From Bifiguratus adelaidae (lineage: Eukaryota > Mucoromycota > Endogonomycetes > Endogonales): 35,205 nt of DNA. A program made the translations under genes and the position numbers. The notes beneath the pieces are model-generated. The model did not search any database. It saw nothing but the letters and a program-made list of their open reading frames with translations, and was not told where the DNA came from. Where the stretch lies: contig MVBO01000151.1 of the NCBI GenBank assembly GCA_002261195.1, positions 1-35,205 of the forward strand, read 5' to 3'. This document shows positions 26,127 to 34,766 of this stretch, in pieces. Each line of letters opens with the position of its first letter. Within the stretch, counting starts at the first letter, position 1.

Positions 26127-27227
26127 ATGACCGGTACGTATTGGTGTTTATACCTTGGAGCGGGTCAGGTTTCGGTGGAGAGCATGCAAGGATACGGCAT
26201 AAAAGGTGGCGCCATAATTTCCCGTATTTCTGCGCTGGCACTTTATCAGTAGGTCGATGGGACTCGGCAGGCTTGGCGTCGTGGCAGCAGTGACTCTTGC
26301 GAAAGGTCCTCTGCCCTCTTGTGTATTGACCACGTCATGTACCGACGACCTAGGCCGGCATTGCCTTTGCAAAAATATCCAGGATCATTAGAGATTCCCG
26401 CTGCGAATTTAAGGGGAGCACGCATACCCGTGCAGTCACCTTTGCCCGTGCGCCTACCTCTCCCTGTGATGCCTGACAGCTCTCGTGTACCTACGCGGAC
26501 AGTTGCTAAAAGTTTCACGTCTTTTCCACATGCAGATACAACGTCGTCGTCGTCGTCGACTGATACCTGGTGGACCCCATCGCCCACATATACCCCAACG
26601 GATACGAGCACGAGCACGAACACGAACACATGGACCGATACGACCACGTCTACTACAATGCCATGGTGGACACCGTCGCCATCAGTCGCGACAGATTCCA
26701 ATGGTAATCCGATTACACCAACGTCTACAGACACCGCTAGCACAGATAGCGGTTCGTCCACAGACACCTCCAGCGACACCAGCGTGTGGATAGATCCTGC
26801 AACCTTGCCACCCATTACCCCTCCGCTTATCACACCCTTTTCTAATTCCTCCTCCGTCGCCCCTACTGATCTCAGCCAGATTGCCGCTTCTTCACAGCAA
26901 GCCTCATCTGGACCGAACAAAGATGCCATTATCGGTGGAACTGTGGGTGGAGTCGCCGCAGTTGCTCTCGTCGGTGCTCTTGGTCTCTTTGCCTTCAAGC
27001 GTCGGAGAGCCAAGGAGAATGAACTGGAAGCCTTCCACCCGGAAATGGACGACGAGGAGTACGCCGGGGGAGTCGGTGGGTACGCCAGCCCATCGCATCC
27101 CGTATACCCTAGTGAGAATCCCGGTATGACGCAAATTGGGCACCCAGCCAGCAATGCTGTAGGCCCTAGCGGCGGATACGGAGGCGATGGATATCGTAGC
27201 TGGGGCAATGAAGCACCCAAGTATTAA
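26127..27227 (+). CDS. Ser/Thr-rich single-pass plasma-membrane protein (N-terminal exons unresolved)
   Basis: The part from ~26,530 to the stop at 27227 is clearly coding. It starts with a Ser run, then a Thr/Ser/Trp/Pro-rich, surely O-glycosylated region with repeats (DTWWTPSPTYTPTDTST, TMPWWTPSPSVATDSNG). A membrane segment follows (AIIGGTVGGVAAVALVGALG LFAF), then a KRRR stop-transfer and an acidic then Gly/Tyr-rich tail ending NEAPKY. This is the design of fungal wall-stress sensor-like or mucin-like proteins. The N-terminus is uncertain: the frame continues open to an ATG at 26337, but a different frame at 26,258-26,388 has a leader-like stretch and cysteines in PLPSCVLTTSCTDDLGRHCL, as in CFEM-type ectodomains. 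Either one or two introns lie between 26134 and ~26,540 or a frameshift is present. Confidence 0.6.
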
Positions 27228-27578: not shown

Positions 27579-28321
27579 ATGACATCCAACGCCACTGCCT
27601 CTCCGTCGGACCTTCCAAGCGTCAACTGTCCATACACCTATACGTATGCCGCTTGTGTCCTGGCAAGTACCCCAAATCAATGTTCACAACCTTGGATCAA
27701 CCAGTATACGCTGTGTGCGTATTGCAATGGAAACACGCAGGTAAGCGTCCAATCCGCAGAAGGTTAGGGAGAAGACACTGAATAGAGTAGCCGGTAGACA
27801 ACGCCATCAACTTTTGCGCGTCTACAAGAGGCATCACCTACTTGACAAATCCTGCAAACTCTTCAACTTTCGCCGCGTCTGTCTCATCCTTAGTTGGGAG
27901 CTCGCCAACGCCTTACCTCTATCCAACATCCACACCCGTACCGTACAGTTACATACCCTATTCCAATGCTAGCCCAAGCACAAGTGCAAGTGGCGCTTAT
28001 CAGACATCAAGTTCCGGTCCAAGCAGCTTATCGCCTACCGTACTTCCGGTGGTAATCCTCGTTCCAGCCGCTGCTATCATCACCATCGCCGCCTACGCCT
28101 TCAGTTACGCTCGGAAAAAGCGAAAACTTGAAGAGGAACAGGCAAGAAGGTATTCGGTTGCAGGGTACGCTTATCCCCCACCGGCTCCTATCTATGGCAA
28201 CCATGTCTACGTGTATCAGCAAATGCCGGATATCCCCCCGACTATCCCTATGTATTACATCCGCGATCCGGCTACAGAACCTCCGCAAGGATCCATGCCG
28301 ACACATACCTCTCCACAGTGA
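27579..28321 (+). CDS. Single-pass membrane protein with Cys-rich ectodomain and YPPP/IPMY tail
   Basis: Two exons, 27579-27740 and 27791-28321, join in phase 0 to 230 aa; the family is not recognised. The ectodomain (~1-60) has spaced cysteines (VNCPYTYTYAACVLASTPNQ, CSQPWINQYTLCAYCNGNTQ, INFCAST). A Ser/Thr/Pro/Tyr-rich linker follows with N-glycosylation sites, then a membrane helix at ~127-150 (VLPVVILVPAAAIITIAAYA) and a KKRKLEEEQARR stop-transfer. The tail reads GYAYPPPAPIYGNHVYVY and then IPPTIPMYYI. There is no N-terminal signal peptide, so the helix would act as a signal anchor with the N-terminus outside. The tail motif recurs in the next gene, which suggests a shared cytosolic partner. 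Sensor or adhesion roles are possible but not shown. Confidence 0.75.
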
Positions 28322-28822
28322 GGTACGAAGCGTATACGCTGGCCGGCAAACCATGAGTTTTGACAGGCCGGTATGCCCGAGGCAATTTACGAAATCCTGG
28401 GACAGTATGACTGGAATAGGTGAGTCGATATCCTCACGATCACGCCACATCGTGCAGATTGGCTCTCGTTCAGTGTCGATACCACGCATAGACATATCAT
28501 TCACATTCACACTATTTCACTAAAACTCTATCACCTTACTGTTCTCGTCATTCAATAAAACCATAGCATGATGATACCTTGGCGGATCCCGAACTGGAAA
28601 TGTGGTTACTTCGGGGCAGAAATAGGCATGTTGCGAAAATGGCCATTTTGTGTGACGACCAACTTGAAGAACCGCCTTGTGTCGCGTTGACGTACATCTT
28701 GAATCGCGCGCGTTCGGTCAACGGACCGTTAACGCCTTCTTTCGCTTCTTTCATCATCAATTGTTCTCAAACGACACGGCAACGCCCCCGCTTAATCTGC
28801 TGCCCTTTGACCGACGGCCGCG
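28322..28822. other. Intergenic region
   Basis: About 500 bp. Contains AATAAA at 28554-28559, 233 nt after the stop of the upstream gene, a plausible polyadenylation signal. A plus-strand open frame from 28579 runs through this stretch and over the next gene in a different frame, but lacks protein-like composition. Confidence 0.4.
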
Positions 28823-29149
28823 ATGAGCAGCATCCCGACTGGGATCACTTTGTTATCCATCCTATTCCCCATCGTCGTCTTCGCTATCGCTGTCACGACA
28901 CTTATTGCAAGGTGCAGAAAATTAAGGCGTTCAGAGGAACCCGAGCATCTCCAGCCCGTTTATGTCTACCCACCACCTATAACTGTATATGGACAAGAAG
29001 TCCACGTCTATCCACCTGGGCATATTGGACAAGATATTCCCATGTACGAAATGAACTATGCATCGGCACCTCCTCTCTATGCAACCTATGGTTGGAACCC
29101 ACCGAATCAACCGCCTTACCCAATGGACAGCAAAGCCCCAGCTTACTAG
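28823..29149 (+). CDS. Short membrane protein sharing the YPPP/IPMY tail with its upstream neighbour
   Basis: A single frame of 108 aa. After MSSIPTGIT comes one membrane helix (LLSILFPIVVFAIAVTTLIA), a basic stop-transfer RCRKLRRSEE, and a tail VYVYPPPITVYGQEVHVYPP then GQDIPMYEMNY and a Pro/Tyr-rich end. The tail has the same order and spacing as in the gene at 27579: YxYPPP, xxhYG, VxVY and IPMY. Unlike that gene it has no ectodomain. Either it is a truncated duplicate, an exon with the ectodomain was missed upstream, or it is a bona fide short form. I do not recognise a known family. Confidence 0.65.
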   Translation: MSSIPTGITLLSILFPIVVFAIAVTTLIARCRKLRRSEEPEHLQPVYVYPPPITVYGQEVHVYPPGHIGQDIPMYEMNYASAPPLYATYGWNPPNQPPYPMDSKAPAY

Positions 29150-31913: not shown

Positions 31914-34766
31914 ATGAGATTCCTCTCCATAGGCGCCTGTCTTGTTTTTGTGGCTTCCGCAGCCGCGGCTCCGGCTATGCCTAACAAAGGCCACCCAGCC
32001 ACCAACGACTGGACGTCCGCTTATACCAAGGCCCAGGCATTCGTCAAACAATTGAACCTGACGGAATTGGTCAGCATGGTGACGGGAACCGGCGGACCCT
32101 GCGTAGGCAACATTGCTCCGATTCCACGGGTGAATTTTACTGGATTTTGCTTGCAAGATGGTCCTTTGGCTCCTCGTGTGGCTACCAATGTTACTACTGG
32201 CGTTGCGGGCATCAACGCTGCCGCATCCTGGGACAAGGATCTTATCCTTTCTCGAGGTCAATACATGGGCCAGGAATTCAAAGGATTGGGGGTCAATATG
32301 GCCTTGGGCCCAATGATGAACTTGTAAGTCTCCGGTTGCATTCAGTGATGCGCGAGACCTGGCCTAATCACTGTTCTCCTAGGCTTCGCGTCCCCCGCGC
32401 AGGACGTAACTGGTAAGTTCCATGGCGGGGTCAGGTGAACTGGTTCTGATATTTGGGTGGCATCTCATAGGGAAGGTTTCGGCGAAGGTATGTGGGACAC
32501 ACAGGAAACACATACGGCAATCATCTCATCCAATTTTCCTCTTCTAGACCCATACCTGGCCGGCGTTGCCGCTTTTCAAACTGTCACTGGCCAGCAAAGT
32601 TCAGGTGTCGTGAGTACACATGGTGATCACTACTAGGTTGAATAATGGGACTAAAACGTCTTTCTGCCTGAATAGATTACCACCGCAAAGCACTACATTG
32701 GCAACGAACAGGAGACGGATCGTACAACCGTAGGATCGTTGATGAATTGGATCCACAAGATATTCACTTTTTCAAATTCTGTAGTCATCTTCCAACATTG
32801 ATGATCGAACTATTCACGAAGTGTATCGCTGGCCCTTTGAACAAGCCGTTCAAGCAGGAACAGGAGCTATCATGTGCTCGTACAATTTGCTTAATGGAAC
32901 ATACGCCTGCCAGAACAACAAGACGTTGAATGGACTCCTCAAGGGTGAATTGCGGTACAAGGGCTTTGTGATGAGTGACTGGGGAGCTGTCCATGATGGT
33001 GTTGCTAGTGCGTTGAATGGCTTGGTAGGTTACTTACTTGGTGTCTATCGCTTCAGTCCATGCATGTTGACGCAATCTCTTTGTATGACTCTAGGATATG
33101 GACATGCCGGGTAGGTCAATCCTCATCCACCTTTCATCAAAGAAAGAGACACTAATGGGTGATTGCCACAGGCGAAAGCAATCACTACGGTCCAAATTTG
33201 GTCGCCGCCGTACAAGGTGGCAGGGTTCCCCAGAGCACAGTATGGATCTCGCGCAAATTGTTGACTAGCTGTACTAAATACATTGTCAGGTTGCCGAAAT
33301 GGCCACCAGAGTCATGGCGGCCTATTACTACACCGGACAGGATCAGGTAGGAAAGATCGGATGTGCAATGGTTCGCGAGGCTTAACCGGTACACAGGGCT
33401 ACCCCACGGTCGACCTCAACCGGGATGTTCAAGCCAACCACAAGGTGGACGTTCGAACCATGGGAACCGCTTCTGTAGCGCTTCTCAGGAACAAGAACAA
33501 TGTCTTGCCATTGACAAACAACACAGGAACGCTTGCCATCATTGGTTCCGATGCGGATAATGGAACGCTCGCGCAAGGATGGGGAAGTGGTTCAAGCACC
33601 TTCCCCTATCTCGTCACGGTAACCAATCCGAAATGTTGGATACAGAGCATGGCTCTAATACCCTCCTGTGCGTTTTAGCCTCTTCAGGGCATCACTGCTC
33701 GAGCCGGTTCCTCCATCAAGATCGTTTCTACCGACAGCGACTATGATACCGCCAATATCACCCACATTGCTTCCGGCGCAAACGTGGCCATGGTCTTTGC
33801 GAACGCTGATTCTGGTGAAGGTAGTGATCGATTGGATCTCAACTTGCAGAACAATGGTAACGAGCTGGTACGTGCAGCGCGCGGCCTTGTGTGTACATCA
33901 CCGTGGTTAATGCTTCACACCTAGATCCAAACGGTGGCCAATGCCAACAAGAATACGGTCGTCGTGATCCACTCTGTTGGGCCTGTCTTGATGCCTTGGA
34001 TCGATCACCCCAATATCACCGCCATTGTTTGGCCTGGTCTTCCCGGTCAAGAGTCTGGAAACGCTCTGGCAGACGTGTTGTTTGGTGATGTGAATCCTTC
34101 TGGTAGATACCGCGCATTTTCCGATATAGCCGCGCACTAAACCACCATGACAGGCCGTCTCCCGTATACCATTGGCAAGTCTGAATCGGATTATCCAGCC
34201 GACGTGTCGAATGCTCCCTCGGTAAGGACTTCGCTAACCTTGCAACCGTTGACAAAAGCACCCGTCTAGTTCCCCTATTCGGAGGGACTGTTCATCGGCT
34301 ATCGCTGGTTCGACGCAAAGAATATTACGCCAAACTTCGAGTTTGGATTTGGTCTATCATATACCACCTTCAAGTATTCTGGCATCTCTTTCCGCAAAGC
34401 TGGACAACGTGTTACTGTCACGGTTCAGGTGCACAATAGCGGCAAGTTAGACGGCGCCGAAGTGGCGCAGCTATACCTTGGATTCCCCAGCAGCGTCGGT
34501 GAACCACCCAAGGTTAGTATAGACAAGAGCACGTTGGTCCGTCCTTGCCGTTCTCTGACGAACCCCGCCAGATCCTCCGTGGTTTCGACAAGGTCTTCCT
34601 CAAGGCCGGCGCATCCACTACCGTGACCTTCAAACTCACTCCCGCGTCCGATATGAGTTATTGGGACGTCCAACAGCAAGCTTGGGTTGTTCCTTCCGGT
34701 ACCTTTGCCGCCTACGTCGGCGCTAGTTCTCGCGATATCCGACAAACGGCCACCCTTAATTGGTAG
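31914..34766 (+). CDS. Secreted beta-glucosidase, glycoside hydrolase family 3
   Basis: Fifteen exons with 14 introns of 48-70 nt join in phase to 679 aa. Exons: 31914-32323, 32383-32412, 32471-32487, 32548-32609, 32676-32729, 32785-33024, 33095-33110, 33172-33239, 33290-33346, 33397-33618, 33688-33867, 33925-34102, 34154-34221, 34270-34512, 34572-34766. The signal peptide is [20 protein letters not shown]. The N-terminal barrel has [46 protein letters not shown] and [11 protein letters not shown]. The catalytic nucleophile is the Asp of GFVMSDWGA. The second domain has [21 protein letters not shown] and [22 protein letters not shown]-terminal fibronectin-III-like domain closes it ([20 protein letters not shown] to QTATLNW). 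It hydrolyses cello-oligosaccharides and other beta-glucosides outside the cell. Several introns carry no stop, so the raw frames look broken, but every junction restores a family motif. Confidence 0.93.

Follow-up and report, generated by a model that had tools for sequence, protein, structure and literature searches.

In yeast, the short single-pass membrane protein Rcr1 binds the ubiquitin ligase Rsp5 through a VPEY motif, with a PPSY motif cooperating, and motifs of the LPxY or PPxY type are present in the proteins Comm, PRRG and CYYR1 (PMC5578492). Rcr1 and Rcr2 are counted among the non-arrestin Rsp5 adaptors in PMC9105457, and PMC9603707 describes Rcr1 as induced after calcium stress, whereupon the chitin synthase Chs3 is ubiquitinated and degraded. 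A second group of single-pass proteins, STMC6, is characterised in PMC5578492 by cysteines in the order C*C*CC*CC.

Here we describe two adjacent genes of the fungus Bifiguratus adelaidae (Mucoromycota, Mucoromycotina, Endogonales) whose products are compared with these systems. The window, that is, the whole stretch of DNA analysed, is 35,205 nucleotides long and constitutes one entire contig (C59); the assembly searched comprises 18,628,366 bases in 286 contigs. An initial annotation had placed a pair of membrane proteins with a common tail motif at positions 27579-29149, and both the coordinates and the motif were right: each of the two genes carries it. Among the literature matches listed that name B. 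adelaidae, no title concerned gene 1 or gene 2.

Results

Gene 1 (BZG36_04402; 27579-28321, forward strand) was modelled as a spliced gene with one 50-nt intron, and the model, picked among possible splice forms, is identical to the database protein BZG36_04402 over all 230 amino acids. Exon 1 (27579-27740), supported by the splice model and the database protein, encodes residues 1-54 and with them the bulk of a six-cysteine ectodomain. The intron (27741-27790, GTAAGC...TAG) is followed by exon 2 (27791-28321), which on the same support encodes the remainder of the ectodomain, a Ser/Thr/Pro stalk, the transmembrane (TM) helix, the tail and the stop codon. The six cysteines (C17, C26, C35, C46, C49 and C63; 27627-27817, across the intron) were placed by alignment to a paralogue, BZG36_00513, and are spaced C-x8-C-x8-C-x10-C-x2-C-x13-C; three N-glycosylation sequons likewise lie N-terminal of the TM helix, and the stalk is rich in Ser and Thr. 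A single hydrophobic segment, residues 132-161, constitutes the TM helix, and its core by hydropathy (28037-28093) is a 19-mer with a mean Kyte-Doolittle value of 2.46, followed by RKKRK. We saw no signal peptide, the TM helix being the only hydrophobic segment. In the tail, a core, YAYPPPAPIYGNHVYVY (28166-28216), was delimited by BLASTP, a shuffle test and a motif scan, and the motif scan placed IPMY at 28244-28255.

Searched against the protein database at word-based sensitivity, gene 1 found only itself up to E 1 (650 candidates), and its sequence had no PDB match at E<=1. Confidence in the predicted structure models is low (mean pLDDT 52 and 42). Short helices are predicted for the gene 1 ectodomain, where residues 31-80 have block means of 73-83, and the predicted structure had no fold match in the PDB, the best reaching E 2.4. 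Pfam at E<=1 returned only matches below the cut-off: PqiA for gene 1 and ECSCR for gene 2. Weak genome matches to gene 1 on contigs C118, C1 and C218 (E 0.03-0.17) were rejected when their frames, inspected by eye, contained neither the ectodomain nor the tail.

Gene 2 is a single-exon open frame of 108 amino acids that runs on the forward strand from the ATG at 28823 to its stop codon (28823-29149). It matched no protein in a database search confined to proteins of 0.55-1.75 times its length, a range outside which longer models containing gene 2 would fall, and it looks unannotated. Hydropathy places its TM helix core, a 19-mer with a mean Kyte-Doolittle value of 2.69, at 28850-28906, followed by RCRKLRR. 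The tail core, YVYPPPITVYGQEVHVY, lies at 28961-29011 (BLASTP, shuffle test and motif scan), IPMY at 29036-29047, and a canonical PPxY motif that gene 1 lacks, PPLY, at 29069-29080 (both by motif scan). Only about 9 residues precede the TM helix core, leaving almost no ectodomain, and the eight 5′ extensions that can be built with a single upstream exon add at most 15 residues and no cysteine-rich domain. A search for an ectodomain remnant between or beside the genes gave nothing convincing: many segments were tried, and the best were each reached by 2-6 of 200 shuffles. No DNA repeat 16 bases or longer is common to the two genes. The ectodomains had been described as completely different; it is more accurate to say that gene 2 has almost none. 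The idea of a sensor family with swapped ectodomains is not supported, there being almost nothing in gene 2 to swap.

An AATAAA between the genes (28554-28559, forward strand) may mark where the gene 1 transcript ends and suggests that gene 1 and gene 2 may be separate transcription units. In both proteins the tail lies beside the one hydrophobic segment with basic residues directly after the helix, as the initial annotation had it; by the positive-inside rule, each protein is likely to have its N-terminus outside and its tail inside, with no cleaved signal peptide.

Two other features of the window deserve mention. A third tandem single-pass protein, Ser/Thr-rich outside and with a TM helix followed by KRRRAK, is encoded at 26319-27227 on the forward strand; its stalk-TM region has 18 genome matches elsewhere (E 1e-6 to 5.7), and its final APKY resembles the last residues of gene 2, APAY, a pattern chosen after it had been seen. 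Coding pieces at 31914-33678, also on the forward strand, resemble those of a secreted beta-glucosidase of glycoside hydrolase family 3.

Both tails contain YxYPPPxx[IV]YGxxVxVY and then IPMY 8-9 residues on, the arrangement being YAYPPPAPIYGNHVYVY-(9)-IPMY in gene 1 and YVYPPPITVYGQEVHVY-(8)-IPMY in gene 2. The core and IPMY had therefore been placed correctly in both proteins; the spacing of 8-11 residues first given was too wide, and the proteins do not end at this point, since 21 residues follow IPMY in gene 1 and 33 in gene 2. BLASTP aligned the two proteins over the TM helix and the tail core with E 9e-7. The tails gave a Smith-Waterman score of 84, which none of 3000 composition shuffles reached (mean 36.2, maximum 65); a Gumbel fit to the same shuffles yielded a milder P of 1.3e-4. 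When YPPP was held fixed, none of 5000 shuffles reached 84 (maximum 78). The TM segments alone, by contrast, scored 26 against a shuffle mean of 24.2, and 1017 of 3000 shuffles reached that score, so that they are not alike beyond composition. Two other tails served as comparisons, and neither was alike beyond composition: for the third membrane neighbour (26319-27227), 641 of 3000 shuffles reached the score with gene 1 and 485 of 3000 that with gene 2, and for BZG36_00513 the corresponding counts were 950 and 246 of 3000. We conclude that the tail is the conserved part of the gene pair and that its likeness exceeds composition, as had been claimed, rather than being an alignment through low complexity alone.

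A likeness confined to the tail, with the TM helix no more similar than composition predicts, is what one would see if two unrelated Tyr/Pro-rich tails had gained one motif side by side. However, the genes are adjacent on the same strand and their tails are colinear, with RKL, the core and IPMY in the same order; convergence between such neighbours is unlikely, and we consider this account very improbable.

Of the 21 aligned tail positions with identical residues, 7 use the same codon, where by our own arithmetic about 7.5 would be expected under uniform codon choice; synonymous sites thus look saturated, yet the peptide has been retained. The tails have a pS of 0.81 and a pN of 0.41 (Fisher 2e-5). 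We rejected this contrast as evidence of selection, since codon-shuffled pairs under the same alignment behave alike: their mean pS was 0.82 and mean pN 0.47, and 184 of 1542 fell at or below the observed pN, the 1542 being those of 2000 shuffles that had at least 20 aligned codons. Because the pN/pS contrast is matched by this alignment control, the case for constraint is made from the similarity score. Neutral copies this old would not be expected to score above every shuffle, and selection on the tail, which the initial annotation had invoked, is therefore the likely cause of its conservation.

The same data bear on an ordinary tandem duplication with a decaying copy, by which gene 2 would be a 5′-truncated remnant, its frame open by luck and its tail likeness residual. 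Such a remnant could well have almost no ectodomain, find no database protein in the length-limited search and show a pN/pS contrast no better than that of the alignment control, as gene 2 does. However, the peptide likeness exceeds 3000 of 3000 shuffles at a distance at which synonymous positions look saturated, which is hard to obtain without constraint on both copies, and gene 2 reads from its ATG through 108 uninterrupted codons to the stop and encodes a complete TM helix with its basic flank. We consider decay unlikely.

BZG36_00513 (P0002, L007; C207:148560-149771), the model of which is identical to a 387-residue database protein, is the only other protein found with the six-cysteine ectodomain of gene 1. 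Over residues 1-96 of gene 1, 37 of 96 aligned columns are identical (39%; E 3e-15); all six cysteines are kept, and an intron of 48 nt lies at the same position in the protein alignment. In contrast to gene 1, BZG36_00513 has a 192-residue Gln/Pro/Tyr-rich tail that lacks both YG..V.VY and IPMY. This tail has no [LPIV]PxY, although it does contain YPPPL. A protein database search with the BZG36_00513 ectodomain gave no further match up to E 10 (212 candidates). The stalk and TM region of BZG36_00513 also matched the genome on contigs C4 and C269. Gene 1 hence has its outside in common with one paralogue and its inside in common with another. The simplest history would start from an ancestor with the layout of gene 1, with BZG36_00513 a dispersed paralogue whose tail has diverged and gene 2 an old tandem copy that has lost its ectodomain but retained the tail.

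To find further tails we relied on motif scans of the assembly, because the genome protein scan has limited sensitivity. In that protein scan, full-length gene 2 and gene 1 each found the partner gene (E 1.7e-4 and E 1.3e-5, respectively) and a 98-aa query comprising the TM helix and tail of gene 1 found gene 2 (E 0.001), whereas the 77-aa tail of gene 2 alone missed the tail of gene 1. The motif scans, for their part, are blind to diverged tails that have neither an exact IPMY nor a near-exact Y[AV]YPPP. The assembly has 80 IPMY-coding sites, each of which was translated in frame over as many as 50 upstream residues and inspected, with introns ignored; three of them (L023, L028 and L044) lie about 100 bases or less from a contig end and have little upstream sequence. 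YPPP or YG..V occurs upstream of IPMY at 2 of the 80 sites, both in this gene pair. The 38 sites that code for Y[AV]YPPP, one altered base being allowed, were likewise all read, and none belongs to a third tail. Three of the 38 are exact; the one outside the gene pair, at C240:170981, continues YAYPPPQNASYGGGYGQPQQ; its frame is open for only 16 residues upstream, and IPMY is absent from the 60 residues shown. Most IPMY and Y[AV]YPPP sites are background, because reversed patterns gave 33 places against the 80 observed for IPMY and 41 against the 38 observed for Y[AV]YPPP. YPPP on its own matched at 316 places.

One set of IPMY sites forms a repeat of its own. A near-identical G-IPMY-RR-[LH], followed by a stop codon and DTG or NTG, occurs at C7:26, C12:206, C24:240232, C44:30502, C167:122049 and C209:138625; at least those on C7, C12, C24 and C209 are close to contig ends, and the repeat is perhaps subtelomeric.

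No third tail was thus found in the 18.6-Mb assembly by the two motif scans (80 and 38 sites), and the protein database, at word-based sensitivity, yielded no relative outside this genome. We conclude that there are two copies of the tail at the stringency tested. They form an orphan two-gene tail family, real but small, and the broader lineage-specific family that had been proposed is not supported.

The initial annotation had suggested WW, SH3 or endocytic adaptor domains as partners of the tail. Among the motif classes tested, only [LPIV]PxY, together with the looser xPxY that contains it, was found in both tails, and the word in common is IPMY. An identical [LPIV]PxY word in both tails arose in 181 of 20000 shuffled pairs, which is suggestive of, and only suggestive of, a common IPMY beyond chance. 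At this composition a single [LPIV]PxY is expected by chance with P 0.37 in gene 1, and two in gene 2 with P 0.14; the five xPxY of the gene 2 tail compare with a shuffle mean of 2.0 (P 0.019). The gene 1 tail has neither PPxY nor LPxY, so that PPxY is not kept in both tails; the PPLY of gene 2 lies outside the common core. The SH3 ligands [RK]xxPxxP and PxxPx[RK] are absent from both tails, as is NPxY. Because IPMY alone of the tested classes is common to both tails, the WW option survives weakly; the SH3 and endocytic adaptor options find no motif common to the two. None of the motif classes tested is common to both tails within the core YxYPPPxx[IV]YG. To our knowledge, YxYPPPxx[IV]YGxxVxVY is not a known WW ligand. 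Our literature searches found nothing that links IPMY with a WW domain, and for a YPPP motif in a cytoplasmic tail they returned, by title, only CTLA-4-type receptors.

The tail might instead serve sorting only, read by endosomal or ALIX/PalA-type machinery, for which the motif is YPX(n)[LI], or by clathrin adaptors through YxxPhi. Gene 2 does contain YPPPI and YPPGHI, and the YPPPL of BZG36_00513 is of the same kind. Gene 1, however, has no YPX(1-3)[LI], its tail having YPPPAPI instead; there is a single YxxPhi in gene 1 (YQQM) and none in gene 2, and the absence of NPxY also counts against clathrin adaptors. A pure trafficking signal is, accordingly, an improbable explanation of what the two tails have in common.

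Discussion

The reading that we prefer, to which we assign a probability of roughly 0.35, draws on analogy with Rcr1. Gene 1 and gene 2 would be old tandem duplicates, of which gene 1 has kept the six-cysteine ectodomain, the Ser/Thr-rich stalk, the TM helix and the tail, and gene 2 only the TM helix and the tail. The tail would act as the cytosolic docking peptide of a transmembrane ubiquitin-ligase adaptor: IPMY, helped in gene 2 by PPLY, would bind a WW domain of an Rsp5/NEDD4 ligase, and the bound ligase would thereby be brought to membrane cargo. The YxYPPPxx[IV]YG core might add affinity or a second contact.

A partner of the WW type is probably available in the genome, because two loci there encode pieces with the layout of Rsp5/NEDD4 ligases, three WW domains and then HECT (C135:62415-64350, forward strand, and C31:9473-7338, reverse strand). 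These are candidate Rsp5/NEDD4-type ligases, apparently two in one small fungal genome. Other observations are less favourable to an Rcr1-like adaptor. Rsp5 is reportedly unneeded for the activity of yeast Rcr1 in chitin deposition (PMC5578492), which counts against the adaptor reading. Neither gene matched the RCR family (PF12273) with the limit set at E 10. The conserved YxYPPPxx[IV]YG core is unexplained by the adaptor reading. In favour of that reading, the top RCR match of the genome is the TM helix and tail of BZG36_00513, the protein with the gene 1 ectodomain; this match is sub-threshold (E 0.0011; 19.0 bits against a cut-off of 27.8), with a place on contig C237 barely behind (E 0.0013), and no place in the genome exceeds the cut-off.

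The YxYPPPxx[IV]YGxxVxVY core is the starting point of a different proposal, in which the tail, again a docking peptide but specific to this lineage, would bind a partner of another kind than WW. The core would then be the real ligand, for example as a short strand bound on a scaffold, with gene 1 a surface sensor and gene 2 a competitor without ectodomain, or a constitutive form. Consistent with this, the core is the longest conserved block and no tested motif class is common to both tails within it, and the gene 1 ectodomain, with its six cysteines, three sequons and Ser/Thr-rich stalk, has the outline of a surface protein, an outline common to many fungal surface proteins. However, no relative with this tail was found in the database and the sequence suggests no partner; neither a ligand nor a signalling role can be read from it. 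We regard this proposal as possible but doubtful. An extension of it would make gene 2 a tail-only twin that competes with gene 1 for a common partner or recruits that partner constitutively, so that a receptor and its built-in antagonist or bypass would be encoded by neighbouring genes, with the core as a hitherto undescribed docking motif of an early-diverging fungus; this is a long shot, offered as speculation.

If the tail binds a defined partner, whether the WW domain of the adaptor reading or another, the gene pair would offer a compact example, from a fungal lineage that has received little study, of an ectodomain and a tail with separate histories, and the peptide could serve as bait for that partner. 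As it stands, this is a two-gene orphan family without known biology, and its reach is limited.

Three known systems resemble the locus in part. Like the fungal surface sensors of the WSC and Mid2 type, gene 1 and the neighbour at 26319-27227 have a stalk, a helix and a basic juxtamembrane segment; no WSC or Mid2-type Pfam match was found at E<=1 for gene 1, gene 2 or this neighbour, the last searched as given, with its N-terminus unmodelled. Gene 1 also recalls the Shisa-like or STMC6 proteins (Shisa, CYYR1, WBP1 and VOPP1): it has six cysteines in its N-terminal domain, a single TM helix and a tail rich in proline. The Shisa-like family has a signal sequence, whereas none was seen in gene 1, and the cysteines of gene 1 do not follow the order C*C*CC*CC. 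Rcr proteins have a short N-terminus before the helix, a layout that gene 2 resembles. Gene 1 differs from them in its six-cysteine ectodomain, and neither gene matches PF12273. We know of no Rcr counterpart of the YxYPPPxx[IV]YGxxVxVY core. The likeness of both genes to yeast Rcr1 and Rcr2 lies in the overall design, a short single-pass protein whose tail carries motifs of the [LPV]PxY type, VPEY and PPSY in the yeast proteins, as given in PMC5578492, and IPMY and PPLY here.
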